64,000 nt of DNA. Origin: Jaapia argillacea MUCL 33604 (Eukaryota; Basidiomycota; Agaricomycetes; Jaapiales; Jaapiaceae). Shown here in pieces: positions 6,766 to 62,069 of this stretch (position 1 is the first letter of the stretch; each line of letters begins with the position of its first letter). The stretch lies in NCBI GenBank assembly GCA_000697665.1, contig KL197717.1, positions 187,325 through 251,324 of the forward strand, read 5' to 3'. The notes below the pieces were generated by a model. It saw only the letters and a list, made by a program, of their open reading frames with translations. It had not been told where the DNA came from and did no database searches. Both the position numbers and the translations under genes were made by a program.

Positions 6766-6771
6766 CAGCAA

Positions 6772-6890
6772 TTTAGGACATTCCTGAGATCCTGAGCATC
6801 CTGAGATTCAGACTCTCAGGACACTCAGCGCGCTCAGGCCCATCTCAGTGTGGCTCAGGATTGTGGTTTTCTCACAAATCCCTGGATTGT
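6772..6890. repeat. Plavaka left sub-terminal repeats
   Basis: Three CCTGA motifs (6783-6811) are followed by three TCAGG motifs in inverted orientation (about 6818-6856), directly inside the terminal CAGCAA. In CACTA-like elements such arrays are bound by transposon proteins. The array matches that of the right end in motif, not in exact order. Confidence 0.7.
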
Positions 6891-12959: not shown

Positions 12960-13137
12960 ACCACCACCCTGAGAGTCCTGAGAGTCCTGAGATGCCCTGG
13001 AATTGCGTCCTGAACAAGTTGAAATCTACGAAATAGACCGTCTGAGGACTGAAGGCCTGGAATGACCTGAAGCACCCTGGACCAACCTGAAAGCCGATTC
13101 TCAGGGTGTTTCAGGGCAGCTCAGGACATTACCACTT
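12960..13137. repeat. Plavaka right sub-terminal repeats
   Basis: Six CCTGA and three TCAGG motifs lie between the end of the second gene and the right terminus, including a direct triplet CCTGAGAGT-CCTGAGAGT-CCTGAGAT at about 12969-12992. Together with the left array they mark both ends of the transposon. Confidence 0.7.
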
Positions 13138-13143
13138 TTGCTG

Positions 13144-13145
13144 AT
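13144..13145 (+). repeat. Target-site duplication AT, right copy
   Basis: AT follows the TTGCTG terminus and pairs with 6764-6765. The LINE reading frame continues from here with GAATGCGGAAACC. Confidence 0.7.
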
Positions 13146-15972
13146 GAATGCGGAAACCATGGTGATGGTCAATGGGACCCTCAGCGAGCCATTCCGAGTG
13201 ACGAGAGGTGTGCGCCAGGGTGACCCCCTGTCGTGCCTACTATTTGACCTGGCAATTGAACCGCTAGCCTGTATGCTGAGAAACTCTGACAAGGTCCTGG
13301 GATACAGAATCCCAGGACTGGCCAAGCAACTCCTGATAAGCCTGTTTGCAGACGATGCAACTGTATTTCTCACGGTGGAAGACCGCTATCATGACCTGCG
13401 TGACATACTCGACAAGTGGTGTCGAGCAGCTGGAGCGAAATGCAATATAAGCAAGACCGAAATAATCCCCATAGGTACCCGGGAGCATAGACTCCGGGTA
13501 GTGTCAACAAGGAAAATACACCCAGATGACCCACCCCTGGATGTGGGGGTTCGCATTGCCAAGGATGGTGACCCAGTCAGGTCTCTGGGTGCATGGATAG
13601 GGAACGATGTGGATAACACGACCCCATGGGAGCCCATAGTCGACAAAATACAGACCAACCTGAGGAGATGGGCGATGGGCCACCCCACCCTAGATGGGAA
13701 AAAGCTGATTATCCAAATGATAGTTGGGGGGATGACACAATACCTTACAAAAGTACAGGGGATGCCAAAAGGGATAGAAACAGCACTGATAGGTATAGTC
13801 AGGAAGTTCCTGTGGGGGGATGCGCGGACACCACCAATTGCCCTGGAATACCTGTACGGAATGAAGGAGGATGGGGGGATTGACCTACTGGATATACTGG
13901 CGAGGAATGAGGCGATTGAAATCACATGGCTGAGGGCATACCTCGACATTGGTCCTGGGAGGCCCACATGGGCATTTGTAACCGATGTAATTATAAACAG
14001 GCTGGAGCCCGGGGGGTTAGACAGTGCTGGGAAACTTAATGCATTCTTGCAATCATGGGACACGCCTACCAGAGGAGGAAGAGCCGGCAGGCTCCCTGAT
14101 GACATACTTAGGATGCTTCGGATCGCAAAGAAGTATGGCGCCGCCTTCCGTCCCCTGAAAATGTCTACGGGTGTGAAGGAAATGCTCCCTGCATGGTTTC
14201 ACATGGGCGCCCCGAAACGTACCTACAACAGACTGCTCGATGGTTGTCTCAAGTCAAACCACAATGTGGTGTCAGTGAGCGACCTGATGAGAATTGCCAG
14301 AAGGACAGAAGAGGCGGCACCACGGCGGCACCACAACCGGAGGAACTGCGCATGTGCGCCGTGCAAACTTGATAGGACCACAAAGGGTTGTATGGAACCA
14401 CACACGTGTGTGGCACGAGCGAGGAAGATCCTCGATAGGCTAGCAGAAAGATACAACCCAGAAGCTGTGGTGCGAGACGACGGGCTTACCCTAACCCACC
14501 GGCGGCTGGAGAAGAACCGACAGGCAGTGAGCGACAACGGAGATATACTGTTTGACCCATCCGTCACGCTGAAGTCCACCCTAGCGGAAGGTTTCCGTGT
14601 CTTCACGGAGCCCATGGGAGACAATGTGCCGCCAGCTTACAGGCTCGTCAACCCGGTGGGGGGTCATAACCTCATGGATGAACATGTTGTGGTGTACACT
14701 GATGGATCATGCACGAAGAACGGCACAGCTAGTGCACGGTGTGGTAGCGGGGTATGGATAGCCGATGGGCACCCTAAAAACATGGCGCTACGAGTCCCTG
14801 GGGAGAAGCAGTCTAATCAGGTAGGCGAGATAGTAGCAGTGATTGCGTGCCTACAGAACATGGACAATTGTGTCCCAGTCACCTTTGTAACGGACTCCCT
14901 CTACGTTATTGAGGGCCTGACAAAGAACCTCGGTGACTGGGAAGATAGGGGTTGGGTAGGTGTAGCAAACCGCGAGTACTTCCAGGCTGCCGCCTACCAA
15001 CTGCGCAGGAGGTCCGCGACATCAGCATTCCGATGGGTTAAAGGACACAGCGGGGACGAAGGAAACGAAAATGCCGACGCTCTGGCGAAGGAAGGGGCAG
15101 GGAAGGCGGTAGCGGACCAGCTGGACCTGTCAGTCCAACCGAGCTTTCGACTCTCAGGAGCAAAGCTAGCCGCTGTTACCCAGGCAATAGCATACAGAGG
15201 CATACGAGAACGCGCCCGACGGAAGGAGAGACGGAAATCAGTCCAGTCGCTGGACCTGGTGAGGTCTAACCTGGAAGAGGTACACGGGCACCTAGAATCC
15301 GACAAAGCAATCTGGGCCGGGACACGGAGCAAGGACATTCAGAGGAAAATAGGCCAGTTCCTGTTTATGGCAATCCACCAAACGCACAAGATCGGGACCT
15401 TCTGGACGAACATACCTAACTATGAAGAACGTGGTAGATGCGGCGAGTGCGATGGCGAGATCGAATCAATGGAACACATACTCCTGGAATGCCAAGCCAA
15501 GGAGAGGCAGCAGATATGGAAGATGGCCGAGGACCTGTGGCCGCCCGGTAGGGGGGACTGGCCTCGTATGAGACTAGGGCTCATCATGGGGTGTGGCTCC
15601 GTCAAAGTGCACGCACCCCAAGAGGAAGGACGTGACCCTAAAGTGGACAGAGGCGCAACACGGCTGATGAGGATCCTGATATCCGAGTCAGCCCACCTAA
15701 TATGGGTAATGAGGTGCCAACGGGTGATCCAGGGTGTGGCCCTCACACAGGACTCGATCGCGCGTAGGTGGCAGAATGCTGTGAACCAGAGGTTGATGAC
15801 CGACCGAGTGCTTGAGACACGGACCAAGAAGAAGCCGAGAGGCGGTTCTGGACAGACAGAACAAACATGGGAAGGAACCCTACAAGACGAACTCCAGCTA
15901 CCGGATAACTGGGCCACAACCCTTGAGGTTTTAGTGGGTATCAAGCCGCCAAGGACCCCCTCAACGGGGTAA
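13146..15972 (+). CDS. LINE ORF2, 3' half: reverse transcriptase, RNase H, zinc motif
   Basis: This is the continuation of ORF2 after the Plavaka insertion. It starts with RT motifs RGVRQGDPLSCLLFDL and FADDAT (catalytic Asp pair at about 13348-13356), then the thumb/connection region. A CACAPC-rich segment lies near 14350. RNase H spans about 14690-15110 with TDGSC, GE (14826), TDS (14891) and KGHSGDEGNENAD. A CX2CX8HX4C motif (CGEC...H...C) lies at about 15440-15490. The reading frame runs to 15972 without stops. Motif C has FADD where many elements have YADD, normal in this group. As it stands this half lacks its own start and the endonuclease. Confidence 0.88.
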
Positions 15973-32478: not shown

Positions 32479-35400
32479 ATGGATACGCCTTCAAGTTCTT
32501 CATCCACATCCTCAGCCCCTAAACGACCTCACCCACCATCCTTCAGTTCCCAGGTCGCAACCAAGAGACCGAAACTTACTTGGAAGGCAGATGATTTGAA
32601 AGCTCTGAATGAAGCTGTGCAGGCCCTCATCCGCAGTGACTGTATGGAGAACATGAACAAGGATGATTTTTCAAAATCTCAAATCACCGACCTACTTCAA
32701 ACGGTCGCTCGCTGCCTGGCCAAGTTCCAGCCCTCTAATCTCCTTGACGAGCGTTGGAGAGACAGAATGGAGTCGGGCGTGGCAAGTACTCTGACAGGGG
32801 CGGATGTTGAAGCTCTTCGGGATATTGTTTTTAGGTGCTTTACACAGAAAAGCTGGGAGGAACTCGCCAATCATTGTGAGTGCCACTCTCACGCATCATT
32901 CTTTCTTCATAGCCATTGAGTATGTTTTCCTAGCTTGTCTGCGAAAAGATCCTCCCACTGAGTCCACTCGTAAGATTCATGCTACTGACGTACTGTATGC
33001 CGGGATTGATCTCACTTTGTCGAATGTCTTCGTTTCCACAGCACGAAGCCTCGCTCACCCTGGCACTAGCTGGCAAGAGAAAGGTCAGCAGGCCAGATTC
33101 GACCCTTTCTTTTCCCAGAAACTAACATATCTATAGCGACGATCGATTCCTGGACTGGTGCATTTATCGGACATGCAGCTGATGAGCTATGGGGCCATAT
33201 CGTCAAATACTCCAAATGGGACAATCTCTATTCTCGCTTTTGTGAGATTGTCCAATCTTCCGCTATGGGCAAGTCGAAGCTAGTTGATGAACTCTCCAAA
33301 ACACATTTCGTCATTCCCATAAATTTGAGGGGCAAGGGGACAGCCGGTTCGTCATCTCTGCACGAATTCTTGCATTGGTACACTCATCGCTTTCCAAAGG
33401 TTATCCACCACCGGATGAAGAAGTTCGGGAATATCTGACAGCCAACTCGTCAGCCGACGAGCTTTATGCACGGCACTCTGCTTTTTTGACAGCGCTATTT
33501 ATCCACACTACCGCCACATTGGAGCAGGAGGAGTATAAGGACGCAATAGAGGCTCAGGATACAACTCGGATTGCTTCATTATTCCGCGCTCACATGGCTG
33601 AGGGTATGTCTACGAAGAGCCATGGGGACTTTCGGAAGGCCATCTACCATACCGTCATCACTGAGGCAGAGAAGAAATTCGACCAGATAATGGTTAGTTT
33701 TGCTTCAACGCCCGGTGATCAGTCTAGTGCTTACTATTTCCTCAGAAATCTCTTCAGGAAGCCAAGCAGCGAGGTGAAAGGAATTACGGCACCGCATCCG
33801 CGACAGCTGCGTATGAGCAAGCCCAAGCTTTTCAAAGGCTCGTCGCCGTTCTGAGGAAGAGCGGTCATCGGGAAAGTCCCAGGCTTCCCCTCGTTATTCT
33901 TGCCTTCGACGAAGCCCATACTTTGTCAGTCCCGCAAACCGACAGGTTTTCGCAGTGGACCAGCTTTGCCGAACTGCAGTCAGCACTACGTTCTATAGAA
34001 CGGAAGCCCGTCTTCTCGCTGTTCCTGTCGAGGACCGCCAGTGGGAAGACGTCAAAATTAACGCCCTCACAAGATGTAGACAACGCAAATCGCATTATCA
34101 CCGGGGAGCTCAGGTCGATCCCGATTTATACTCTGACTGGCTATGACCAGCTCGCTCCAACACTTGACCTATCAAACCCAAAGACGCTGGACGAAGTTGT
34201 TGCCGACAGCTGGATTTGTCACTATGGACGACCACTGTGAGTTCGAACATCATACGCAGAATTGTTTTTCACTCACCCGATATAGGTTTGGTTCTCGGTA
34301 TGATCATGGCGCGGATCCCATCAAGGCAGGCATAGTCGAGTTTGCGGCCTGCAAGCTTCTCAACGCGAAGAATCATATACCATCTGAATTCGACGGTCCG
34401 CAGCAATTAGCATGCCTCTCGCAGCGTCTCCCCCTCGAGTTCGAATCTACGACACAAAGATCACGGGAGCAGGAAAAGAAGCAAGTGGAGGTTCATCTGC
34501 GTGTGTGCCTCCGCATCGATGCAGGTGTTGAGTCGATGGTCACCACGAGCCCTTCTGAGCCACTTCTCGCCGAGGCTGCGAGCCTTGCCATGCGGCGACC
34601 AAAGTTCGACGCCCCCAACGCCCTCAAGTCTGTTCTCGACGGATTCCCCATCAATAAGGGCGTACGAGGGGAAACCCTTATACTCCTTCTCTTAACATTG
34701 GCACGCGACGCTGTGGTTCAATACCAGCCTGCCTACCGAGCGTTTACTGTGATCGAGTTGATCACCGCACTATTTCACCAAAACATGACTGCACGCGAAT
34801 TGGATAGTACGGAGAGTCTCCCACTAGACGACATCTTGTTTTCAAAGCCATCCGTCGCCTGCGCCGGCCCCGAGAACATTTTCTCGGCTGAATTTGCCAC
34901 CAGCTTCGTTCATTTCAACCATTTTATCAAGGCTCATCAGCCTTCCATAATCAATCGCAGGTTCCTTGCTGCCCTTCTCCATAGAGGCGCCGCAGTGTTG
35001 TGTGCAAATGGTCAGGAAGGGGTTGATATCGTTATTCCGTTCGTCCATGGTCCAACAAGTACCCCAATCCGAAAAGAGCGACTTGGCGCGATATTATGCC
35101 AGGTGAAGAACGACCAGAAGTATGATGCTAATCCACAAATGCATCTATTCCAGGCTATGGATCCATATAACATCGGCTTTTTTGACGAAGCCGACGAACC
35201 CATCCCCATCATTCGCATCGTGTTTGCCCTGGCAGCCAAAACGCCCTCACTCACAATCATTCCCTCGAAGGGAGAGGAAGGCAAATTCATCGCCTACGAC
35301 ATCTGGTGTGCAGGCATATCACCACTGATTTTTCGTCCCATCGACCCTTCACAGGGGCACGTCTGGGAAGCGTTGCTTCAGGCGTCGTATGGTTGGCAAT

Positions 35401-35507
35401 CGGTGTATAGAGATGAGGATGGACGCTTGGTAGAGAGGAGGATGTCTCTGAATCCTGGCATAGCCGAAGATGATGGACACTGGTCTAACTGGGTGCAAGG
35501 CACATGA
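32479..35507 (+). CDS. P-loop NTPase with C-terminal nuclease-like domain (CR/Crinkler-type layout)
   Basis: A multi-exon gene starting MDTPSSSSSTSSAPKRPHPP with a Ser/Pro-rich, basic N-terminus (KRPHPPSF, TKRPKLTW). Middle: SAMGKSKLVDELSK, a Walker A-like loop (near 33265), then LPLVILAFDEAHTL, a Walker B with DEAH (near 33885). C-terminal part from 34290 to 35507: GVDIVIPFVHG followed by LGAILCQVKNDQ, matching the D...(E/Q)xK core of PD-(D/E)XK nucleases, then YDIWCAGISPLIF. This NTPase plus restriction-nuclease layout is described for the CR (Crinkler-RHS-type) proteins, which are expanded in Agaricomycetes and thought to derive from transposon proteins. Substrate unknown. All exons read through. 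It lies between two copies of the HOM6 5' end. Confidence 0.7.
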
Positions 35508-46053: not shown

Positions 46054-47240
46054 CTAGGCGGGTTGTTCGTAGATGCGAGTCTCCCACTCAGGAGGCATGA
46101 TATGCTCCCACTTTTCCAGGAGGCCTTTCGCTTTAGCTCGTATTCCCGCTGTCGCAGGGAACTTGGGCCCATCAACAAGATAACTGAGGAACATCATCAC
46201 ATGGGAACGCTGATAGACCTCTCGATGAGAACATCCAACGACGAGCAAGCAAACGTGACCGACCTCGAGCAGATCACCCGTGATTTTTTGTTCGTGGAGA
46301 CAAGAATATCGTGACTCCGCATTCGCCAATTTATCCAACAGTTCCTCACCATCCTTGACATCCTCCTGCCAAAAAAGAGGTGGTATTGTCTGGTTAATAA
46401 CCGAAAAACCAAAACACTCACCTGAGTTATGTCGGTGTCTCCCCGAGCATTTGAGAACTTTTCGTCAAGCATGTCGAGTAAGTTAGATACTCTCAAAAAC
46501 ACCGAAACTATGCAGCCCAGGTATGCCTGAGACCAAGTTCACAACAGGATGGTCTTGGACTCACCAGCCCGCCAAAACCAAAAGGCCTTGTAAGCTCGCG
46601 CCCTGACCCTATCATAAAGACTACACCTTCTCTCTGGGACCGATGTCCCTTTCGCAGTCAGAGAGAGACCCACATCTATCGTACTGCTCCTCTGTTCCTT
46701 GTCCCAGATTTCTGTTGTGCAACGCCAGTGTCCCTCGCTCAAGACTAGTAGCAGATAACGTCCAAGGACGCTGCTAATTCTCGTGCCAACCAATTGATGT
46801 TGGCCTATAGTAGCAAGGGCTACCTTCAAAGCCACAGCCGAGTCCGGAACGAAGGGATCAAAATCGTGAACGTCTCGATACTTCTGACGGAGGAAAGCCA
46901 CGCTTTCAAAGGGGTTGTCGGGGAGACTGTTGAGGTGGATGTAAGTGATTGGTCGTCGTTGAAAACATACGGATTGAGAGAGAGGCGCACCTTCCTCCTG
47001 AGTCCAATTCGACCATAAATACATCACAGATCACTTTGAGGGTGATCTCTCGGAGCTGGCGCGAACAGTGGAGCAGCGACAATACGGGGTTCGTCTGACG
47101 AGGAGACTGGGATCGGCGATGGCGTGATCGATATATTCCGTGGTGATATCTGCCACTACTTCGTAGAGAAGCTCTGGGGGCAAAGGGACGAAGTTCAGGG
47201 GGTGAGATAACGACGCGTCCTGTTCCTGACTCGGGTTCAT
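46054..47240 (-). pseudogene. Orphan LPPE/EYID family, copy A (one-base deletion)
   Basis: The minus strand reads MNPSQEQDASLSHPLNFVPL, LPPELLYEVVADITTEYIDH, then after a frame change NPVLSLLHCSRQLREITLKV. Exon 2 starts SLPDNPFESVAFLRQKYRDV. A later exon ends LLEKWEHIMPPEWETRIYEQ. It is close to copy B over its whole length. B has CTCGGTCAG where A has CTCGTCAG (near 47099), so A has lost one base and the frame shifts in the first exon. Other exons are open. It is either a fresh pseudogene or an assembly error. Family function unknown; see copies B-F. Confidence 0.65.
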
Positions 47241-47886
47241 GTTTGAAAGTGGCTGGTGACACCGAAGCTGGGAATAAGTAGTGGTCAGTGATATCACTCA
47301 ATCACCGTCTTCAGAGCAATGCGTGAAGTTTCAAGACAATCAGTAGGCCAGAACTCGACAGGCTACAGTTCTTCAGAATGGGTTGAGAGTAAGGAAAGTT
47401 GAATGCCACCAATATCGAGACACGACTTGTCACGGTCACGTTGCCTTAGCACGCGATCATCAGACAACTGACCACAAATCAACGCAGGCGAGACGACGCA
47501 GAGGACGGATCGTTCATGAACATACTACGGATACTGCGCCTAGGATCGTAGCAACATGGGCTCGAGTCTGTACTCCCTTCGATTCCGTAGGTAACACCAA
47601 CACTGAAGTGGAGGGTTCGAAGTGCAAAACAATGACAACGAATCCGGCGTGACCAGGTTCACGATTCCCTCATCCAGTATCGGCGCCGTAGGTCCAGGCG
47701 GTGCTCACCACGTTGATGTAAGCCGGCCAGGTCGAAACTTCCCGCCTTGCACGTGTTAAGTTAAAGAATGCAATGTCATCAGGCCATCATGATGCCATAC
47801 TACCAAGTAAGCTGCCCCGGGCGGGGGTACCTCGATTCTCGAATATACAATTCCTTGCAGACATGTGAGGTTGAACTGAGGTAAAG
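47241..47886. other. Intergenic region between family copies A and B
   Basis: No gene or clear repeat seen. Confidence 0.4.
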
Positions 47887-49070
47887 CTATGCGGGTTGTT
47901 CATCATAGATCCGAGTTTCCCACCCAGGAGGCATGAGATGCCCCCACTTTTCCAAAAGGGCTTTCGCTTTGGCTCGTATTATTTCTGACGTAGGGAACTC
48001 GGGCCCGTCAACGAGATATTTGAGGAACGTCATCACATGGTAGCGCCGATAGACCTTTCGATGAGAACGTCCAACAAGGAGTGAGGACAGCGAACCGACC
48101 TCGAGCAGATCACCCGTGATTTTTTGTTCGGAGGGAAAGAGGTACTGTGCCTCTGCATCCGCCAATTTATCCAACAGTTCTTCGCCGCGCTTGACATCCT
48201 CCTACAGAGAAAAGCATTGAGATTGTCTGGTTGATGGCTGCAACCCCACCACACTTACCTGAGCGATGTCGGCGTCGTCCTGAGAGTTTGAGAGCATATC
48301 ATCAAGCGCTTCCAGGAGGCTAGATACTCTGGATAATTCCGAAACTAAGAACCCCAAGTATACTGAGCGAGATCTTTCATCAGGGCGGTATTGAACTCAC
48401 CGGACAGCCAAAACCAAAAGGCCTCATAACCCCGTGCCCTCGCCCTAGCATATAAACCCCGCTTCTTCTTCGGCGCTGATATAGCGTCCACAAGCAGAGA
48501 GAGACCCAGAACCTTCATAACCTTCTTCGTCTCCTTGTCCGAGGTTTCCATTGTGTAACGCCATTGACCTTCGATCAAGACCAGCAACAGGTAACGCGCA
48601 AGGACACTCTCAGGATTTGAGCCAGCCACAGACTGAGGATCTGTAGCATCCAGGGCTAAGTTGAAAGCCGTTCCTGAATCCTCGTCGCGTGGATCAAGAT
48701 CGTGAACCTCTTCGTATTTTTTACGAAGCGAAGCCACGCGTTCGAAGGGGTTGCAAGAGAGGCTATCAAATTAAATATAACCGATAGGTCATTGTGGAAA
48801 AAAACCTGAATGGGGAGAGATATACCTTCCTTGAGGGTCCAAGTCGACCAGAAATACATCAATGATCACCTTGAGGGTGATTTCCCGGAGCTGGCGACAA
48901 CAGTGGAGCAGCGACAACACAGGGTTCGTCTGACCGAGGAGACTGGGCTCAACGATGGCGTGGTCAATATATTCCGTGGTGATATCTGCGACTACTTCGT
49001 AGAGGAGCTCGGGGGGCAAAGGGACGAGGTTCATGGGGCGAGATAAAAACGCGTCGTGTTCTCGATTCAT
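47887..49070 (-). CDS. Orphan LPPE/EYID family, copy B
   Basis: Starts MNREHDAFLSRPMNLVPL with LPPELLYEVVADITTEYIDH, NPVLSLLHCCRQLREITLKV and IIDVFLVDLDPQGR before the first intron. Exon 2 begins at SLSCNPFERVASLRKKYEEV. Then LARYLLLVLIEGQWRYTMET, GYEAFWFWLSGEF, DVKRGEELLDKLADAEAQYL and the C-terminal helix KALLEKWGHLMPPGWETRIY. The protein is all-helical by composition with no signal peptide, no membrane segment and no catalytic motif. The first 70 residues look like a diverged F-box (LPPELLYEV...SLL--CRQLREI), which is inference. It is a near twin of copy A. Confidence 0.75.
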
Positions 49071-49687
49071 GAGAGTGGCTGGTGACAGAAGCTGGGGGAA
49101 AATGGTCAGCAATATCGCCCGATCATCGTTCACAAAAACCAGAAAGTCTGACTCGCTAGGGTTCTTGCTACGGACCGATCGCCACATAGCGATAGCAAAT
49201 GGCATATCTCTACCTGGGCTTTGCGTGGCTCGCTTGTCTCCCCCATGGAGTTTCGCCACCAGTCTCCTGTCGTAGTCGTTTGCTACCCGGACACAACGAA
49301 CCCAGCCCACGGGCATCTTGCTCGCGCCCTTCGAGCTCAGTGAATTTCGTCCTCCTGCACCATGGGCTGCTACGCTGGATATCATTCCACACACCCTTCT
49401 GACTACATCCCCCGTAGTATCACTTAGTTCTATATTATTATTGACGAGTTTTGATTGGGACTTTGTTAGCTATTTGACTGCACTATGTGGCATGGATGGA
49501 TAAAATGTATGCTACGGATTTGGAGACATTGAATCAAATTTCAGCCTACTCGGGGACAGTACATTCACAGAAAAGTAAAAGGTGACATTATGTAAGGATT
49601 CATGGGGGGTGGATACAGCAGTGTTACAAGTGGCAGGTAGGGGGTAGAGTGAAGGGGAAAGGAGGTGGGAGAGATGGAAAGAGATGG
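49071..49687. other. Intergenic region before the assembly gap
   Basis: No gene recognised. It becomes purine-rich (GGGAAAGGAGG type) towards the gap. Confidence 0.4.
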
Positions 49688-50144
49688 NNNNNNNNNNNNN
49701 NNNNNNNNNNNNNNNNNNNNNNNNNNNNNNNNNNNNNNNNNNNNNNNNNNNNNNNNNNNNNNNNNNNNNNNNNNNNNNNNNNNNNNNNNNNNNNNNNNNN
49801 NNNNNNNNNNNNNNNNNNNNNNNNNNNNNNNNNNNNNNNNNNNNNNNNNNNNNNNNNNNNNNNNNNNNNNNNNNNNNNNNNNNNNNNNNNNNNNNNNNNN
49901 NNNNNNNNNNNNNNNNNNNNNNNNNNNNNNNNNNNNNNNNNNNNNNNNNNNNNNNNNNNNNNNNNNNNNNNNNNNNNNNNNNNNNNNNNNNNNNNNNNNN
50001 NNNNNNNNNNNNNNNNNNNNNNNNNNNNNNNNNNNNNNNNNNNNNNNNNNNNNNNNNNNNNNNNNNNNNNNNNNNNNNNNNNNNNNNNNNNNNNNNNNNN
50101 NNNNNNNNNNNNNNNNNNNNNNNNNNNNNNNNNNNNNNNNNNNN
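49688..50144. other. Assembly gap (457 N)
   Basis: A run of N flanked on both sides by G/A-rich low-complexity sequence, which probably explains the failed assembly. Reading frames that cross it mean nothing. Confidence 0.98.
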
Positions 50145-50661
50145 AAGAGGGGGGGGAAGAGGCAGGATAGGGGGTGGGATGGTAGGTGGCCTGGAAGAGA
50201 GATGTGGTCAACATGACTCCAAGTGATTAATGTAAGGGAAAGGGAGAAGATGCCAAGAATTCAAATGAGGGGAGGACGACTCACCTCCACCAGTTGTGAC
50301 ACAACGCTATCCCTGTCGTATCCCGCAGATAGATGGGTACCGGGGTTCATACGCCTCTCTTCTTCTCGCAGGTAGGGAGGGAGGTGGGTCGTCGTAGCCG
50401 AAAGCCGTCATATCCAGAAACCTGCTGGATGGCAGGTGAGAGAATGAGGAGCGGAAACGACGACGGCTGTTGCTTTCCACTCCTGGCAGCACCATGGGTT
50501 GGAGGAAAGGAGGAACTTACAATGCAGGGCGTCATTGTGGGGAGAGGAAGAGTGATAGGTGAAAGGTCACGCGTGTTGATGACTTCGTAGTCACTACATA
50601 TTAGCTGGTAAACTTCGAAGTTTATGTGTAGCTCGAAGCTTTGGCCATTGAGCGTTAAGAG

Positions 50662-50774
50662 GTAGCAAATCGCCACCCCGCATGAGCTGTGGCAGATCGC
50701 CAGCTCAGCGCCATCCGTGGCGATTCGCCCTTTGCTACTTGCTACTTGCTACGTGGCAACTCTCCACGTAGCAA
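50662..50774. repeat. Cluster of nested palindromes
   Basis: Inverted arms GTAGCAAATCGCCAC (50662-50676) and GTGGCGATTCGCCCTTTGCTAC (50717-50738) enclose a smaller palindrome with GAGCTG ends (about 50684-50706). Directly after, TTGCTACGTGG (50746-50756) and CCACGTAGCAA (50764-50774) form a perfect 11-bp stem with a 7-base loop. All share TTGCTAC/GTAGCAA. It may be a miniature inverted element or a fold in an RNA. Confidence 0.6.
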
Positions 50775-50922
50775 GGTTCCCCGCGGGTCGTATGTTCTCA
50801 CAAAAACAGGCTTTAAGCCGCGAGAAAGTATGTCAGTTAGAAATGGGTCCGATGCAGTCAGATGAAGAGGGGAGAGTGCGGTCACATAGCTGGAACACGA
50901 CCCGTCACGATCACGTTACATG

Positions 50923-51520
50923 TAACGTGTTGCACCCCCAAGTCGGACACACCGAGATGTCGGACACTGGGCTCCTGCTCGCGCGGGGGTCGTTGAACAG
51001 ATCTGTAAATTCATGTATGCCATCTTTAGGGTGCCTCAATTCATCCTACAGGAGGAATAAGCACACAGGACATTGCATCCCTCACAATAAATCATGCCCA
51101 TCGGGAGGACATGGTCTGCCATGTGGTTCGGCATTTTCCGAGCCGCGCCCCCCGCCACCGACAGCGACAACGAGTTTCCCTCAGAATGAGGACGTCTCAG
51201 GATGGTCTACCCACCCAGGCACCCGTGGATATGTATTAGAGACATAGTTGTGTGCTGAATTGGTGGGGCCGTCAAATATCATAACTTCATTTTGCTTTGT
51301 CCGACTTCCCGGTGCCCACATGGCCTTGTGGCCGAAAATGCCCCGGACATGCAGCGACCACAGATTTATTTGTACGATGGTTGGAACTAATTCCCGTTGG
51401 TGAGGCACAGAAAGGATACAAGAAAACTAGATTATCAAAAAAGTACTCGAAAATGTGGTCTGTAGCTGGAGGTGTGCATCCATCAGTAAAATGTGTCCGA
51501 CTTGGGGGTGCAACACGTTA
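50923..51520. mobile_element. 598-bp MITE with perfect 29-bp inverted repeats
   Basis: The ends 50923-50951 and 51492-51520 are exact reverse complements over 29 bases (TAACGTGTTGCACCCCCAAG...). The outermost TA on both sides fits a TA target duplication, so the element proper would be 594 bp with 27-bp repeats starting ACGTGTTGCACC. TA duplication points to the Tc1/mariner-pogo superfamily. Inside are partial copies of the GTCGGACA part of the repeat (50957, 51298). No transposase is encoded, so it is non-autonomous. Perfect ends suggest recent movement. Confidence 0.85.
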
Positions 51521-51669
51521 ACACGGCTGACTGCTTAGTACTTGCTGAGTTCATGGGTGGGCAAACTTGCCAGGGCTCAATACAGTCATAGGCGTATCCG
51601 CAATCTATACATTAACATTTATCTAGAGATGCACACTGAGTGGCTCTTACGACTTTTAGCAACTACGAT

Positions 51670-52824
51670 TCACTCGGAATCGTATGATCTCGATGGGTCC
51701 CATAGGCTCAGGAGTTGGTTAGCACGTTCCTGCAAGTTAGCCAAGCCAAACTTTGTCGCCTTGCACACCACATCTTCTAAGATGTCAAGCACACCCGTAG
51801 CGTACTGTTAGATAGTCAGTAGTTAATATAATGCAGTCAGCTCCCGCCACACGAGTAAGCTGACGGCCGTACCTCGAACATCTCGACTGTGACATCAAAT
51901 GATGCATCCGGCGCTATCTCAACTAAAATTGCGCGACAACGTGGGCCAACCGAGGCTAGATGTTCAAGGGATTGCTCGAGCAGCTCAACGCCATCCTATC
52001 CAAAGGGTAAAATGTGTTGTACATTTGAATAGAGGATAGCGACGAACCAATCAATGGGCTTACATTGTCAATATGAGAGGCCTCATGATAATTGTCGAAC
52101 TCTTCCTCCAGGTCTTGCGCCGAAAGGCGCAGGGACGTGACTGGACAGGTACATCAGCCTTAGTTAACGTCAATCCCCATAACGAGCTCACCCATGGCCC
52201 AAAAAACCATCGAACACCTGGATCTTACCGACACCGTCTCAAACAATGCCCATCTGCCTGGTGGAGATTGTATGGCGAGTGCAAACACCGTCCACGATGC
52301 AGGATCGTTGATCAGACTGATGTTGTCCCAGTCAGGCTGAGCGAGCGTGTGCTGGCAAAAGCCCTCGCAGAAGGCCAAGTTCTCATAAGCATTGAGAATC
52401 GACGAACGATCGGAGCCGGTTGGAGAGAAGGGGGTAAAGGTATCCTTGCACCAGGCAATGAATGCCGTCAAGCTCCTCGAGGGCGTGTAGACTCGTAGAT
52501 GAAGGGCTCTCCGGTATGCAACGCGTATCTCATCAAGAAGGCGGAAGGGGTTCGAAGGGAGACTGTATCGGCAAGGGTGTCAGTACATACTGAGCACTGA
52601 GCTGAACCAAAGAAAGATGCTCACCTTCCATCGAGGTTTCGTTTGAATTGAAAGGCATCGCAGATGACTTTCATGGTCACCTCTCGAATCTGGTGAGATA
52701 CCTGAAGCAAAGCCAGTACGTCGTTCTGGTCCTTGGGAGGCGGGTAGGGCTCGGTGATGGTTTCATCGATATATTCAGTGACTACCTTGGCAGTAATTTC
52801 GTATAGAATTTCTGAAGGCAACAT
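51670..52824 (-). CDS. Orphan LPPE/EYID family, copy C
   Basis: Starts at MLPSEILYEITAKVVTEYID (52824; the frame stays open to an ATG at 53004, which adds 60 residues unlike the other copies). Exon 1 ends VICDAFQFKRNLDG at a donor shared by the family. Exon 2 starts SLPSNPFRLLDEIRVAYRRA, and has WTVFALAIQSPPGRWALFET. Later short exons read TSLRLSAQDLEEEFDNYHEA, DGVELLEQSLEHLASVGP and YATGVLDILEDVVCKATKFG, ending ANQLLSLWDPSRSYDSE. Same layout as B but diverged. Function unknown. Confidence 0.65.
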
Positions 52825-53320
52825 GAGTTGGCCAGTCGATGGATACTTTACCAGATATGTAGGCAGGAGGATAGAGAGCTGAGAGCAAGCCGTGGAGAGC
52901 GGCGAGGCAAACCGACCATGATATGTATGGCCACAAAGGACGGGAGTGACAAATTGAAAGAGACCAATGATTGATAACTCGTGCATGTGCACTCTGACCA
53001 GCAAAGAGACAGCTTAGTACCATGGCTGATTGTCGTGCAAAGAAACGATTGTGTGAGGACAAAGAAAATCGCACGTCGCTTTTGCAATACCCGTCCCGAT
53101 TTCCCGTCGCACCGCGGTTAATTGAATGGTGGATGTCGGACTCCTTGGAGAGATAGATAGATGCACGGCGTGGTCCCAGTGACACATGCGAAAGGTCACC
53201 GGTTACCTGGGGCAGGGCCCTGACCCAAAAATAAACGAAGGTCTGAGTAGATGAATACAGCTGAAAGCTACAAATGTGGTAGGGATACAGTGCCAATACA
53301 ATGCCCAGCTATTCCGTCGT
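52825..53320. other. Region between copy C and the secreted-protein gene
   Basis: No independent gene recognised; the upstream in-frame extension of copy C falls here. Confidence 0.4.
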
Positions 53321-54116
53321 TCATGGGAACGTCAAGATGTACGCCTTCGTTGCCTGCTCCCAGCTACAGTCTGGCAACCCATTCGTTGTCCCATCCCCAT
53401 TCCCTCCACACATCTTCTCCAACTGAGGACCAAGCGACTTGAGGATGACTTGTAGCTGACTTTTGACGTCGGCCGAGCGTCTATTCTTCAAAAACTTGGA
53501 GTAGTCGTTGCCGATCAATGAACCACGAGGAATGAACCTCTTGAACATCCTAGGCGGCGGGTTAGTTGTGTGTTCCAAAACGGTTTGCTCGATTTCCTTG
53601 TAGGTCTCGGATCCAGGCTTAACAAGATTTTCGAGCATATGGAGCGTAGTGTTGTAGGCGATGTACCGAAGCTTCCCATAAAAGTGGACAAGTGAACCTG
53701 GAGTCCCGCAGACGACAGGGCAGTTGGGGTTGGGGCAGCCAGGAGGGTTGATGGTGAAGTCCGGGGGCAGTTGACATTTCCCGTGGAAGTACGACGGAAA
53801 GATGGCTGTTTCGAGCGCCGAAGAGATTTCAGAGTTGTAGGTTGCTTGCACGGGTTGCAGGAAGTACGTGACTGTTGGGGGTTGCGCGGTTGGTGGGACC
53901 AGCTGGTTGATTTGATTCCCCTATTGACGGCTCGATTGAAGAAAAAGAAATTTGAGTAGGCAAGTAACTCACGATATTTGTGAGGAGGGTTTGGATGGGC
54001 AAAGCGTAATTGTCAATCCATCGTTGTGTGACGCCATCCATGCAATCCTTTTCGCAAGCAAGCACAGCGACCGGCGCCATGAGAAGGGGTATAAAGGACA
54101 GAGCTTGGAAGAACAT
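53321..54116 (-). CDS. Secreted eight-cysteine protein, 247 aa
   Basis: Two exons, 54116-53973 and 53920-53321, joined LLTNI/GNQINQLVPP. Residues 1-20 are a signal peptide (MFFQALSFIPLLMAPVAVLA), cut before CEKDCMDGVTQRW. The mature chain has eight cysteines: CEKDC, one in GKCQLPP, a GCPNPNCPVVCG cluster, MCGG and PDCSW. An even count suggests four disulfides. It resembles a family of secreted agaricomycete proteins that start C-x3-C near a GVTxxW/F motif (remembered, not checked). No enzyme motif is present. It starts 171 bp from copy D on the other strand, so the two may share a promoter. Confidence 0.8.
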
Positions 54117-54287
54117 GATACAGGTTTTTACAGGAAATTTAGGAAGAATGAGCGAGCTAGATATGCTTGGGGATAGCGGAGATGGTGGTCAAGTTCAAGT
54201 TCAAGTTCAGTTCTGACTTTAAACTCCGCGACGCGTTCGAAAAGGCGACTCTGAGTCTCCGTCGGACCGTTAGGTTCATCTCTCTCC

Positions 54288-55638
54288 ATGGTCTTGTCTC
54301 GTCTGATATCTCGAATTCTAGATAGCCCACCATTCTGGTTATTCAACTATCAAGATAACCCGCGCTCTCCACCCTCCGTCCAGGAGGAGGTAAACTCGCT
54401 GTCGTCCACTACGAGATCTCCAAATATCGCTGCTCTGCCAGGCTGCAACAGTATGGTCTTGCCTCCGGAGCTTCTTCACGATGTTGTAGCCGAAGTCGTC
54501 GCTGAATACATCGATCGGACTATAGCAGAGCCTAACGGAGTCTCGAATGATCTTTTGGCTCTGCTCCAAGTGTCACATCAGATCCGAGAAGCCACTCTGA
54601 AAGTTGTTTGTGATGCCTTCACGTTTGAACGAAATCCTAATGGAAGGTGAAAGTTCTGTTCTCTTTCCAGTATTAACGCCCCTCATCTCTGTCTCTTTTT
54701 AGCCTCCCTTCGAATCCGTTCAATTTGATCGCGGCCATGCGGAAGAATTATCAGGATTCTGATGCACACAATGAAAAGAATGGGAGTATGCTCTGTGAAT
54801 CATGCTCAAGAGCGAAATCTGCATCGGACGATGTAACTCTCCTCGACCAATACCAGCTCCTGGTAATGGGACAATGTTACTGGCAATTTATGATGGGCTT
54901 GCCAGAGTGGGAGGACCAGAGGCTGCTGAAATTAGGTTATGAGATAGTCGCTATGGCCCTATTCGTTCCGCCTGGGAGACTCATTCTGCACAGCAGAGTG
55001 ACGGCCAGAGCTCGGAATATTCTTGCGTTTTGGGTGTTGGGTAAGCGAATCGAACTGCAAGTCTGCACCTCAAGACATTTGGCTTATCGTTGGCAGTCGC
55101 ATACTTGCGGCTCAATTGCCTGGAGCTGAACAGGCTAACGGTGGAGTTCAGTAATTGTGACACCGAAGATGAACTCGATCCGGTACGTCCTGTACTGACC
55201 GCCACGCTCCCCTCAGTTGTGGATTTATCAAATTTTTCGATTGTATAGGGAAATGTTAAGCGTGCCGAAGAGGTCCTTAAGACGTTGGAGAAGAGTGAGG
55301 CCAGATGCTCCCAACAACTGGAAAGAGTAGCGATCAGCTCATGGCAGGTCAAGATCACAAAGAAAATTCTTGAGGTATTTTGTCTTGCTGATCAAACTGG
55401 CTTACGAGCCTCCTCACACCACTCCGAGCTCGCAGATGTTGGTACCGCACTTATATACGTCGAGGCAAGGTGCAGGCTCCCCGCTCTGGAGAGAGTCTGC
55501 GATGGAGCCATGCAACTCACGGACTTATGGGGTCAGATGCTATGGGAGGACGAAGATAGTGCTCCATTTCGCTGGGTGCCGCGGAGAGGGTTGGTCTTAT
55601 CCTCACAAGTCCATGTTCTGGGTGCCGGCGATGTATGA
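54288..55638 (+). CDS. Orphan LPPE/EYID family, copy D (opposite strand)
   Basis: The only plus-strand copy. The first in-frame ATG is 54288; a start at 54453 (MVLPPELLHDV) would fit the other copies better. Exon 1 has LPPELLHDVVAEVVAEYIDR, LALLQVSHQIREATLKVVCD and FERNPNG before the donor. Exon 2 starts SLPSNPFNLIAAMRKNYQDS. Later: LVMGQCYWQFMMGLPEWEDQ, RARNILAFWVLG, then VAYLRLNCLELNRLTVEFSN and LKTLEKSEARCSQQLERVAI. It ends VLSSQVHVLGAGDV. The C-terminal helix is less like A, B, E and F. Function unknown. Confidence 0.68.
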
Positions 55639-55863
55639 TTAGCTATAACCTAGTGTAGAATAAACCATGGATATGTATTAGTATCTAGTTCAGTTTCGAC
55701 TCGCCATTGAACAGTGTAAGGAAGCTTGTAGAGGGACGCTCAGTGAGAAATATCTACCCCGACAATCTGTCGGCTGTAGGGTCTTCATGACCAGAGTAGC
55801 GATGGCATGCGGGGGGTTCCAAAACATAGTAGCATGCTTCAGGACTCCACGAACCTAACGGGC

Positions 55864-57108
55864 TTAGGGAGCAGCGAAATGCAGATATGGTGGCCTGTGA
55901 TATCTCTCCCTCCACCCGTCGCTCATCAGAGGTGTCCACTGCTCTAACAATATCTGAACACGATGCTGAATAGGATCGATCAGCGGATTCGAAGGGACTA
56001 GCAAGATCTGCTCAAGCAGTGGTAGCGCTCGAGATTTCTGAGAAACAAGGAAGTTAAGGCTACGAGTGATGGGTGACGGACATAGGATGTTGGCGCCGTA
56101 CCTCAATCATTTCTCCTGTCAACTCCTGATGATTATCTGGCAGGACTTTCTCGAAGTTCTTCCAGAAGCTGCTCTCGAGCCGCGTAAGAATTGCACTGGC
56201 GGTAGCTATGTCTTCTGACTGAACCAGCAGTCCGGTCAGATCGTATGACAATTGAGTGTTGGGCAAGGAGATACTTCTATGTCAGCACAAAGAGCGACAG
56301 ACTCCACCCACACTGCCCGAAGGATCTCCAATTTCGTCGAATACTTCAACAGCTCGGACACTTTGTAGACAATGATAGGTGGGGATGAATCATAAGTGAC
56401 GGTACAGCACTGGCACGTACCGAGGTTGAAGAAAACCACCCTGTCCTTTCCTCTCTCCCTGACGTTGACATACAACGCTGTTCGTCCGCTGGGAATATCC
56501 ATCGCAGACAAGAAACCATCTGAACTCTTCTTAAAAAATCTCTCAGCTCCTGGAATTCCGTTGTACTCCACGGCGAGCGCCAAACGGTACTCCCCGAGAC
56601 CCAGGAAGAAATAATTGTAAAGGATGTTCCGGGAACCATCTCCGGGGCGGTGAAAAGGAAGTTTCTTGACATTGTCTTCAAAGGGTATAAAATTGGTTCC
56701 CGGGTGATATCTGCCGTCGAATGTCATAGCTGATTGGTAGAGACGGCGACTATACTTCAAAAATTCAAACGGATTTTCCGAGAGGCTAGTAGGTTCACCA
56801 AATAATCAATCATGCTGATCGTGATGGAAGGAACTACGCCAATAACAGAGCAGAGCGAACCTTCCGTCCGGTTCCCGTCTGAGGGAGAAGAAGTCGCAAA
56901 GAAGCAACAGAGTCACTTCGCGGAAGCGATGGTTAACTGCGAGTAGATGCTGAATGATGTTCTCCTCGGGGGTGGGGGATGATGGATCAGTGATGAACAA
57001 GTCGATGTATTGCGCGATAAGGCCGGTCAGGGTTTCGTACAGGAACTCGGGTGGTAGTTTGGAGTCCAAACCACTCCGCAACGCCTCTGGCGAATGAAGT
57101 TCGACCAT
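55864..57108 (-). CDS. Orphan LPPE/EYID family, copy E
   Basis: Starts MVELHSPEALRSGLDS with LPPEFLYETLTGLIAQYIDL, HLLAVNHRFREVTLLLLCDF and SLRREPDG before the family donor. Exon 2 begins SLSENPFEFLKYSRRLYQSA. Then YFFLGLGEYRLALAVEYNGI, MDIPSGRTALYVNVRERGKD, LTGLLVQSEDIATASAILTR, and a last exon ending LLEQWTPLMSDGWRERYHRP-PYLHFAAP. The end matches copy F (LLEKWTPLLAEGWEDRY-PPYL). Function unknown. Confidence 0.7.
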
Positions 57109-57707
57109 GATCTCCCAATGAGTGGTGTCAGACGAATCGATGAGACAACCACTGCTGGAGGGAGTATGACGGACAGTATTGTAGAAATGTCTGATGAATG
57201 CCCGTCAAAGGGACGTCCTTGGGGTGTTTGTTATACCTCTGCCACGTACTTGATCTGCCAGTGACTGTGTCGTGACTTCCCTTTGAGGCCCAGTGTCAGA
57301 GCCGGCGTAGTCAAGATGGATCGACAGATACGCGGCGTGAACGAGAAGAATGGACGGGAATGCACAGTGTGTAACGCCGATCAAGCTTCTTAGAGTATCA
57401 CGATAGCGAGCGTGACATTTTCAAGTGAGATTCCAACCGTTCAGCGCCATCAAATGTGTCGCATTTAAGTTCGCGAAATGCTCAACATGAAAATGGTATC
57501 GATCACGCAAGGCCCGAGTAGATATGCAAACACAATTTCACCTCCAGCCATTAATTATGAGGACAGGACCAGCTGAGAGTCCGACGCCTGATGATACTGG
57601 CACTCGTTTTTCGGAAGGGTCTTGAAGAAATCTGCAACAAGGCATGGATGGGTTGTCACGGTGGGGCGAGCAACAGAAACATGGGAAATAAGTGACCCCA
57701 TCAAGCT
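57109..57707. other. Intergenic region
   Basis: Between copy E and the kinase gene; no feature seen. Confidence 0.4.
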
Positions 57708-59618
57708 TCAGATGCCATTCAAAGGGGGACTGGGTGGCGAAAGGGGCGTTTGATGTATGCCAAAAAAATAATAGGGATGAAGGTCCTTCCGCAGAGGCAG
57801 ATGGGACACGCACCGGGTGGCAACTTGAAGTCGACGAATGATAGAAGACAAGGAAGGTCTAAGCCCGGGATCATGGGACCAACACTCCGTTATCAGCATC
57901 CAGACATCGTCAGTGAGTCCACGAGAAGGCGGTAGAGAGGGCCGTTCAGGTCGACTCCCTTCAATTGCTCTGACGAACACGACGATGCCTGGCTCTAAGT
58001 TGGGAAACGGGGCTTTGCCTGAGAAAATCTGCGGTGTTGCCAGTCGGATGAGGCTCACCAGTCGAGGCTGGTTTAAAGGGTATACACACCTCCCAGGACG
58101 CGATCCCAAATGAGTAGACATCGCTCTGCTCTGGACTGGCGTTTTCGAGACGGGGATCCATATATCTGTACGTTGACTGATGTGGTCCGGTGACCGAATT
58201 GAGACTCTTCTCACCGTGGAGAACGGCACTGTGACCAAAATCGGTCAGACATGCGCGAAGATAGCGATCGACGAGTATGTTATTCTGATCGGGAAATATT
58301 CAGCAACAGATGCATAGGATAAAATACGGACTACTGACGGGTTTCACATCTCCATGAGCTATCCCAACACAGTGAAGAAAAGCTAGACCTTCCGCTGCCT
58401 CCATAAGCTGACGTGGCGGGGATGAGTTGACGGGCGATGGAAGCATGAACGCTCAGGCGCTTACCAGTCGTGGACGATCTGCATCAGGATTGCGTCTTAG
58501 ATATTCGGTGATGGTACCATTCTTCATCCACTTTGAAACCATGCACAAGTCGCCCCGGAAGAAAGTCACACCCAAGAATGGCACCACGTTGGGGTGTCTA
58601 AGTCGGGCCCAAACAATTGTCTCGACGATATAAGGCTGTCCATGAATCGTGACATGCACCAAAACTTCAATCGATCGGGCTCACCTCGATGGTCGTAGAC
58701 CCAGTAGGTCGCTTTGGTCGCTTTACTGCAACGGAGCAACGGCGACAATACCCTTTGAACACATCTGCAGTCCCACCACAATCAACCGGATATTCAGACA
58801 CCCCAGTCAAGGGCCATGGCAGGGCATAGGACGAAGGTAGAATACCCGCGTTTCGGCAGAATTTACGCAGAACTTTCATGCATCGAGTATGTAGCGGACT
58901 TTCCACAGGAAGCTTGCACATTGCCTGAACCGCTGAGTATCACTTCTAATCAGTCTTAGAAGAGGAGGCTCACCTCACTGAGCAAATCCGCGGATGATTG
59001 CGCATCTTCGCGGTTCAGACTCCTCAAGGTGGCCAGGTGTTCCTTCGTAGAGAGGACGTCAAACAAAGTCGTGTCAACGGCATCTGCGAATTCGGGAGGG
59101 GGTGGAAAAGCTTCGGAAAGTTCTACTTTAAGGCCGTACGATTGTGCCAATTGGCCGACACGTTTCAGAAAGTAGTTGGGACCGCGACCGTTCCTGACCA
59201 GGCGATCCTTCAGTTGCCCCAACACCTCAGCAACCTGCTGGTGGCGAGCTAACAAAATGACGGGACCCCAAGATTCCCAGATCCCGAGTTGAGAAGTCAG
59301 AATCTGATACCATTCACGACTAGATCCCAGTGGAGAAGGTTAAAATTGCGCGTTCACACGGGATGGGGCGAAAACAGACCTGTCCGAGTTCGCTACCGTG
59401 GCGCTTTCGGCTCTTGAGACAATCGAGTCCAGAGAAGGACGTCGTAGCGAGCCGACACTGAAGGTCGCCAATGCTTGTTGGATCAAATGACGGACGAAAA
59501 GCTGTGACGAAACCACTCAATCAGACAGCAATCGGAAGGTATTACAATCCTGACCTACCGAGGCAAAGTGCACAGAAGGTAGGTCTTCTAGCAGAGAACG
59601 GAGCTCCGGTTGCGACAT
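57708..59618 (-). CDS. Protein kinase with N-terminal extension (fungal TKL-like)
   Basis: Many-exon gene starting MSQPELRSLLEDLPSVHFAS, joined to LFVRHLIQQALATFSVGSLR and, after an intron, REWYQILTSQLGIWESWGPV. About 200 helical residues precede the kinase domain. Kinase motifs: GGTADVFKGY (glycine loop), VAVKR (ATP lysine), ETIVWARLRHPNVVPFLGVT, LCMVSKWMKNGTITEYLRRN, AEGLAFLHCVGIAHGDVKP (HGD where most kinases have HRD), NILVDRYLRACLTDFGHSAV (DFG), TYRYMDPRLENASPEQSDVY (activation segment end), SFGIASWEV and LITECWSHDPGLRPSLSSII. Such HGDxK kinases are greatly expanded in Agaricomycetes. All key residues save the HRD Arg are present, so activity is likely. Substrate unknown. It sits inside the orphan cluster. 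Confidence 0.82.
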
Positions 59619-60038
59619 TGCTGGTTTTGACCTCTGTCAGAGGGAAAGAAGAAATCAGCTACCCAATCTGAGAACCCATAATATCGGAAAGGTAAGGAGG
59701 CCGTTCGACACGGGCTGAGCCTCACTACATTCACGCGGCATCAATCGTATACGATGGAAAATGCCTGTAATCGATGTCGCAGTGGGTTTCAAACTAAATC
59801 GATCGATCCATGTTAGATACATGCACCGAAAGCGTGGAAGAGGCTCTACTTCTAGAGAGCCGCATGACAAGCCTCGAGAGGAAATCGATAAGCGTTGGTG
59901 GGCGTTACCAGAGCGCCAGTATGCCAACTTTGCGTAGCTCTGCAGTTCACGCATGTATGGCCAGTCTGATGTGTAGGGTTAGTCCACGAATAGAAGGGCC
60001 ACCTTCTGATAGAGTGAAGAGTTGGATACACCATGAAT
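59619..60038. other. Intergenic region between kinase and copy F
   Basis: No gene seen; it should hold the kinase promoter and copy F's 3' UTR. Confidence 0.4.
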
Positions 60039-61324
60039 TCAAAGCGAGGCAAGGTACGGAGGCTCGACATATCGGTCTTCCCAACCTTCGGCCAACAATG
60101 GCGTCCACTTCTCCAACAAGGCATTCGCACGTTCATGAAAATTCCTATCGGGACTGAACGGGGGATCAGAGATGGTACGAAGCAGAGCTGGGATGACTCC
60201 CGAAAGCTAGAGGTGGTTGATGAGAGTGAACGCATGAGTTCCGCGGAATGGTCCGTTGAAATGAATACTGCGTACCTCGATCATTTGTCCAGTAATCTCA
60301 ATATCCTCGTAAAGCCTAAGACCGGACAGCGCATTGACAAGATAGTCTTTGATGGTTTCGATAGACTCCAGGGACATATCAACACACACAACTTTCTCTT
60401 CCTGCTTCACATTCAGTATTGCAATAGGAAAACAAGGTGGATGCTTACCGGGGGTGGTAAACCCTGACTCAGAGCATGCACGCAGATTTGTCGACAGAGC
60501 TCTAGCCTTGTGGTGTGACCGACCAAATGTGCAGCTGCAATTTGGTCAACAATTGTCAGTGACTCGACTCGACAGATCTCAGCATGATGAAGGTGTGACC
60601 CACTGCTTAATGTCAACACCAGCAAGTCCCTGGCTCTCGTCCAAACTCTCTGGTACAAAGGCCACCGTCCTTTCGGTACGGACAGCGCTGCCACAGCCAA
60701 CTGCATACCCGGAGACAGGTGGCCACCCCGTGCTATATGCTTCAAACATAGTTCACCAACGGCGAGACAGTAGTAATTGGAAAGGATACTCGTCCGATGG
60801 TTCTTGTTGTCTTCTGCAACAGACTGGGAGTTCGCGTCAACGGGGACTGGCAAAGGGATAGGTTCGGGAGGTGGGGCCGACTTGGCGTTGCAGATGACCC
60901 TATATGTCTGGCGCATCTGGGCGAGAGCTAGGAAGGGATCCTCGGAAAGACTGAACATGGAGAGGGCAACAGTATACTGTTAGTCGTCACGATATTCACT
61001 GGAAAACACATTGATATGGAGACAAGGGATTCACCTGCCATCTGTCTCTCGTTTGAGAATGAACAAGTCACAGAGAACTTCGAGCGTCACCTCTCGGATT
61101 TGGTGGCATGTTTGAAGCAGTGACAACACTGGGTTGTTTGGGAGAACGTTGGATGACAGGTCTGGTGGGGAAGACGCAGTGACAAAGGTATCAATGTACT
61201 CTGCAACGATTGGTCCAACTATCTTGTATAATATTTCCGGTGGAAGTAGCTGGCGGTTCTGCAGAGGTCGCGAGTTTGTATTATTCTCCGTGGCTTCGTG
61301 AACAACCGTGATAAGGACCAACAC
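60039..61324 (-). CDS. Orphan LPPE/EYID family, copy F
   Basis: Starts MLVLITVVHEATENNTNSRP, then LLPPEILYKIVGPIVAEYID, NPVLSLLQTCHQIREVTLEV and LFILKRETDG before the donor. Exon 2 starts SLSEDPFLALAQMRQTYRVI and has YYCLAVGELCLKHIARGG, LAVAALSVPKGRWPLYQRVW. A later exon reads KVVCVDMSLESIETIKDYLV and LYEDIEITGQMIEV. The final exon reads ISDPPFSPDRNFHERANALL, EKWTPLLAEGWEDRYVEPPY and stops at 60039. It is most like copy E. Function unknown. Confidence 0.68.
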
Positions 61325-62069
61325 CAGCGGGTTACCGATGTTATGAGGACGAACGAACCTGGATCCATCATTGAAACCTACAGCCTTGATGCGAAAATAC
61401 GATAAGTGACAGTAAGTGACGCTGGCTTAGTCGTACGTCGTTGAGGAAGTGTGTTCACCACACCCAGGAGCTGCTTGTCACAGCAAAAGTCTCAACAATA
61501 TCCGAAGCTTGACTTATTGTACGTCTGACAGTCAGTCAACAGTCAAGCACTGTAGGCCGCGATGACAAAAGTCGAGTAACATCTTATTGCCACTCGAGCC
61601 ACTCTACGAACTTTGGGACGTGGCTCGGAGGCCTTTGGACACTCGAGTCCTCATACGACTCTACACGCGCGACTCAAGTATTATGACAGGAATCGCCCCG
61701 GGTTGAGCGGCCATTGGAATCGTCGGCGAAGCCACTATCCCTCAACACCAAATAGGGTGAGCGTTGGCGGGTGGTTGGACACGGATGGGGGGACGGATAC
61801 TCCAAGCCAGCGTATCTCCAACGTATTAGTAAGGGTTTGGACTGGGGGGGTCCTCCTACTTTGTTGACCCGCCACATTGCTTCGCCTGCTTCGTAGGTAC
61901 AAAACAGCAAGTGAACCATGTTGCTGGGTTTCCCGAATATCTCGGAATGACCGTCGGCTCAAGCCTTAACTAGGCGATGGATCTCAGAGAATGCTCGGAG
62001 CATCGCAGCACACACCTTGCAAGAATTCTGGCGGATGTTCATACAACACGTGCAATTACATGAGTGCTT
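61325..62069. other. Intergenic region
   Basis: No gene recognised between copy F's upstream region and the RPC31 3' end. Confidence 0.4.

Follow-up and report, generated by a model that had tools for sequence, protein, structure and literature searches.

Layout of a six-copy gene cluster

The analyzed window comprises 64,000 nt of the Jaapia argillacea genome (C9:187325-251324; the genome has 43.7 Mb in 95 contigs). Its genes and many short introns have a fungal appearance. It contains six related genes, copies A to F, which were modelled by six-frame reading and hand splicing. The features are listed here in window coordinates.

46054..47240, minus strand: copy A; exons 46991-47240, 46565-46926, 46422-46507, 46264-46365, 46054-46209
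47887..49070, minus strand: copy B; exons 48826-49070, 48401-48762, 48259-48344, 48100-48201, 47887-48054
51670..52824, minus strand: copy C; exons 52625-52824, 52192-52562, 52064-52140, 51873-51995, 51670-51804; seems intact
54453..55638, plus strand: copy D, inverted; exons 54453-54646, 54703-55040, 55097-55182, 55249-55374, 55429-55638; last junction doubtful
55864..57108, minus strand: copy E; exons 56861-57108, 56421-56785, 56275-56360, 56102-56218, 55864-56037; open throughout
60039..61371, minus strand: copy F; exons 61359-61371 (inferred mini-exon with ATG), 61035-61293, 60604-60950, 60449-60534, 60276-60401, 60039-60206
61037..61249, minus strand: F-box-like segment in the first large exon of copy F; the aligned segment is present in 10 of 10 family members
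60039..60401, minus strand: TND-like segment in copy F, comprising the last two exons and intron 4; likewise the corresponding region of the other copies

An earlier note on this DNA had described a six-copy cluster with a common design, and this was borne out. Each of the six copies could be located and modelled, and all have five coding exons and the intron phases 2,1,0,0 (for copy A the phases were counted across a frameshift). The strands were also as described, i.e., the plus strand encodes D and the minus strand the other five copies. The shared motifs could be confirmed, with variants at the start: exon 1 encodes the pattern LPPE-L-YE...EYID...LL...RE-T, with LPSE in copy C, LHD in copy D and QYID in copy E, and in copies A-F the splice after G is followed by S-L-x-x-(N/D)-P-F. 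The proteins have 301-332 residues in copies A-F, and 285-332 residues in the whole family.

The condition of the individual copies was inspected as well. In copy A the frame is broken because of a one-base length difference in exon 1 compared with copy B. The acceptor of intron 4 is YAG in copies A, C, E and F, while copy B has no YAG acceptor and the one of copy D puts the frame off the homologous one. Intron 4 is open in frame in copies A, B and D, and thus the intron 4 of copy B, which is open and also without YAG acceptor, may be retained. The models contain non-YAG acceptors at intron 4 of B and D, intron 2 of E, the mini-exon intron of F and intron 3 of G48. An in-frame ATG was not found in the main first exon of copy F, and therefore this copy probably has an upstream ATG exon of 13 nt; if this mini-exon is correct, copy F would reach about position 61371. 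The odd features of A, B, D and F may represent decay, assembly errors or unusual splicing.

Several other features were observed in the window. Pieces of retrotransposons lie on the plus strand at 4448-6787 (endonuclease and reverse transcriptase) and at 13066-15972 (reverse transcriptase and RNase H). An open frame of 456 residues (34137-35507, plus strand) had no Pfam match at E 0.01, and the same was true for an open frame of 199 residues between C and D (53321-53920, minus strand). A run of N adjoining simple purine-rich repeats is located between B and C, at about 49688-50144. Between E and F there is a probable kinase gene (about 57708-59640, minus strand), with a match to PF07714 under the cut-off (E 0.0016) in 57708-58244.

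Relatedness, spread and selection

At the sequence level, the likeness among the copies is far beyond chance. In a whole-genome search the exons 1 of C and of F matched the D protein at E 5.8e-18 and 1.2e-10, respectively. Copies A and B are 65% identical, and the other 14 pairs of A-F are 23-36% identical. A and B are not the near-twins that they had been taken for.

Protein searches of the genome with D, F, a C33 member and the C48 member as queries revealed four further members of the family, one on contig C48 and three on contig C33. All four could be modelled with the same five exons and phases as A-F, and their identity to the cluster copies is 15-28%. The three copies on C33 form a second cluster (L051 777-9452) and are 60-72% identical to each other. 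The presence of members on two other contigs shows that the family is not confined to the A-F locus, and a spread beyond the locus is, therefore, shown within this genome. The total of 10 members is a lower bound because the searches used single proteins. C11 and C54 each had a weak match (E 0.44 and 1.4, respectively), and 64 pattern matches in viral contigs did not include a relative. In a tree of the ten members, A and B form a group (support 100/99), C and D form a group despite the inversion of D (support 84/90), and E is a long branch.

The pairwise dN/dS was 0.47 for A/B and 0.38, 0.44 and 0.30 for the C33 pairs. The pairs E/F and C/D were saturated at synonymous sites, so that four of the six pairs were measurable. 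The A/B value was taken with a 45-nt intron 4 of copy A; the 54-nt version comprises three residues fewer. For exons 1 to 5 of A/B the values were 0.35, 0.54, 0.65, 0.37 and 0.33, and thus constraint in A/B is stronger at both ends than in the middle, and the values do not show positive selection. The exons with the lower values are those with the F-box-like segment (exon 1) and the TND-like segment (exons 4 and 5). A role in self/non-self recognition or defence had been suggested for the cluster. In view of the A/B value and the saturation of E/F, such a role is not shown.

Domain likeness of the two protein ends

The start of the proteins had been described as F-box-like. A profile-profile comparison (hhalign) of the N-terminus with a profile of F-boxes from the same genome, i.e., the 8 best of 53 listed F-box matches, resulted in a score of 29.0 (P 2.5e-4), compared with a mean of 10.6 and a maximum of 17.3 for 200 column shuffles. 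Both the LPxELL and the LLxVSxxxRE helix are covered by the alignment, and the stretch that separates them is about 19 residues longer in the family. The score stayed between 26.7 and 29.6 when any single F-box was left out. Helix 1 alone scored 18.3 against a shuffle maximum of 13.7, and helix 2 alone scored 18.6 against 12.1 (150 shuffles each). Exons 2-5 had no match to the F-box profile (9.3).

The F-box-like start is therefore backed by the profile-profile comparison, also for both helices separately, but not by Pfam, the PDB profile search or the predicted model. None of the full-length proteins A-F reached a Pfam cut-off (F was scanned from its main first exon, and the C33/C48 members were scanned by their end segments only). 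The sole full-length Pfam match in A-F was a phage connector model, which was weak (E 0.19) and unrelated. The N-terminal segments did not reach the cut-offs for F-box or F-box-like domains; the best F-box match was PF12937 at E 0.16 (2/10 members), and this was surpassed by a 2EXR (PF20150) match of one N-terminus at E 0.036. For the genome 53 F-box matches were listed, with 150 of 227 candidates scored, and the window contains none of them. Among 18 weak PDB matches of the exon-1 profile there was no F-box; azurin, the TEF family and the others were weak and unrelated. The genome has one match to Skp1 (PF01466).

At the other end, a likeness to the TFIIS N-terminal-like domain (TND) was detected, which the earlier note had not described. 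Searching 177,635 PDB sequences with the six-copy profile yielded the MED26 N-terminal domain first (E 0.0012 and 0.0018). The best chain without a TND had an E of 0.34, and TFIIS had an E of about 1. With a ten-member C-terminal profile, MED26 was found at E 0.0055 and the next non-TND chain at 0.053. The PF08711 cut-off was not reached: two of the ten C-termini matched, with a best E of 0.086, and the other two listed families were matched by one C-terminus each. Comparison by hhalign with seven TNDs gave a score of 27.4 over columns 257-304; none of 599 column shuffles scored above 15.4, and the reversed controls gave 15.3 and 12.6. This TND profile contained three of the four PF08711 matches of the genome itself (L056, which is split by introns, was omitted for this reason) and four PDB sequences as printed segments; Elongin-A was left out. 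The score was 23.7 without MED26 and 22.9 with the TNDs of the own genome only. As single targets, MED26 scored 28.8 and a C16 protein 23.9, and the other five 9.5-16.1. This C16 protein, which we take to be a PWWP protein, has a TND according to PF08711 (24.6 bits, over the cut-off), and no TND was found when it was used as a phmmer query against the PDB.

The TND alignment spans 45 columns over both last exons. Exon 5 gives most of the score (exon 4 alone 8.1), and the three C33 members alone gave no TND signal (10.5). The profile likeness spans the helical core of the TND including the Leu-Trp helix, except in the C33 members alone. The TND-like C-terminus would also account for the LLE-W helix of the earlier note. 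The genome has its own TFIIS gene (C31), recognized by its match to TFIIS chains, and its phase-0 intron at RITEALLR|ESKAG aligns with intron 4 of the family at ITGQMIE|LSGV or its equivalents. This shared intron site is taken as supporting, not as decisive, because it was noticed after the fact.

Structure predictions with AlphaFold2 were of low confidence and confirmed neither an F-box nor a TND fold. For exon 1, five window rows were used (copy A was left out because of its frameshift), and two long helices were predicted with a pLDDT of 70; Foldseek listed nothing for this model. For the last exons, nine rows were used, led by copy B read through intron 4 and followed by A, D and exon pieces of C, E and F. 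Four main helices were predicted with a pLDDT of 64, and the 11 Foldseek matches listed contained no TND and no E below 0.001.

Proposed function and comparison with known systems

Taken together, the family is real and not assigned by Pfam, and it is partly explained as two domain likenesses, both of which are remote. In the best explanation, the proteins are mostly helical with a variable middle part. Tentatively, and with somewhat less than even confidence, we propose that they are Skp1-type adaptors that start with an F-box-like part and end with a TND-like docking part, and that were multiplied by tandem duplication. The N-terminus would form a two-helix unit resembling an F-box, in which the first helix and the loop are lengthened, and it would dock on the Skp1 of a cullin-1 ligase. 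The C-terminus would be a diverged TND (LW domain), which would recognize short linear motifs in disordered proteins of the nucleus, of transcription or of chromatin, and the bound protein would be brought to ubiquitylation. According to one study, TFIIS, ELOA and LEDGF are bound by TND-interacting motifs that lie in a disordered part of IWS1 (PMC13175633).

Other readings had to be weighed against this proposal. The proteins might be F-box-like adaptors with C-terminal helices that are not a TND, and the MED26 likeness would then be due to chance or to convergence around a RAxxLLxxW helix. This would fit the concentration of the TND score in exon 5, with no signal of exon 4 alone or of the C33 members alone, and the absence of a TND from the Foldseek matches. 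However, the alignment extends over 45 columns and both exons, two different TND targets (MED26 and the C16 protein) score well, and TFIIS has one intron position in common with the family, and we regard this reading as doubtful.

Less probable still, and rather unlikely, is a family of helical scaffolds outside of SCF ligases, with an LPPE start that resembles an F-box only superficially, in a cluster that undergoes birth and death and is in part decaying. Both F-box helices separately exceeded the shuffles, and dN/dS was below 1 in the four measurable pairs, which speaks against it, while the Pfam and PDB searches that found no F-box and the prediction of two long helices for exon 1 are in its favor; the frameshift of A and the doubtful last splice sites of B and D would agree with its decay part. 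That the genes encode self/non-self or defence proteins under diversifying selection is highly improbable. The cluster is indeed tandem, diverged and contains an inversion, and the middle exons are the most variable ones in A/B, but dN/dS was 0.30-0.47 in the four of six pairs that were measurable, with E/F and C/D saturated, and Pfam found no incompatibility or defence domain in A-F.

The proposal of Skp1-type adaptors can be taken one step further, with considerable reservation. An F-box-like module for Skp1 binding might be fused to a TND module for peptide docking, with the order opposite to that of Elongin A. The tandem-multiplied proteins would then be a set of ubiquitin-ligase adaptors by which linear motifs in transcription or chromatin proteins are read. 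If true, evolution would have linked a cullin ligase in a second way, by the pairing of F-box and TND, with a domain of the transcription machinery that docks on motifs, and Skp1 would be a candidate partner of a family that Pfam does not recognize. A narrowly worded literature search found no paper on a combination of F-box and TFIIS-N in fungi. Another source names protein-ubiquitination genes, including F-box proteins, among the orthogroups specific to complex multicellular fungi (PMC8893723).

The family resembles several known systems in part. With F-box and F-box-like domains (PF00646, PF12937) it has in common the LPxELL helix and a helix like LLxVSxxxRE, but it has about 19 more residues between the helices and does not reach the Pfam cut-offs. 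The MED26 N-terminal domain (PF08711) is the best sequence match of the family C-terminus, but the family is below the Pfam cut-off also in this case. To our knowledge, neither MED26 nor IWS1/Spn1 contains an F-box. The C8 protein, which presumably is IWS1, had a low score against the family (12.5). In IWS1/Spn1 the TND adjoins other helices, which is a likeness, but a HEAT repeat lies beside it (PMC13175633).

The last system for comparison is Elongin A. It contains a TND together with a segment for binding of the Skp1-like ELOC and of a cullin ligase by which stalled Pol II is ubiquitylated (PMC10716050). The likeness is that one protein combines a TND with a segment for binding a Skp1-like adaptor and recruiting a cullin ligase (PMC10716050). 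The difference lies in the order, since in ELOA the TND comes first and the BC box later, while in the family the F-box-like part comes first. The combination of an N-terminal TND with an Elongin_A domain or BC box was not found in the family, and the window contains no match to PF06881; two weak Elongin_A (PF06881) matches in the genome, below the cut-off, are located on C5, outside of this family. By loose analogy, the family may work like Elongin A with the parts in another order.
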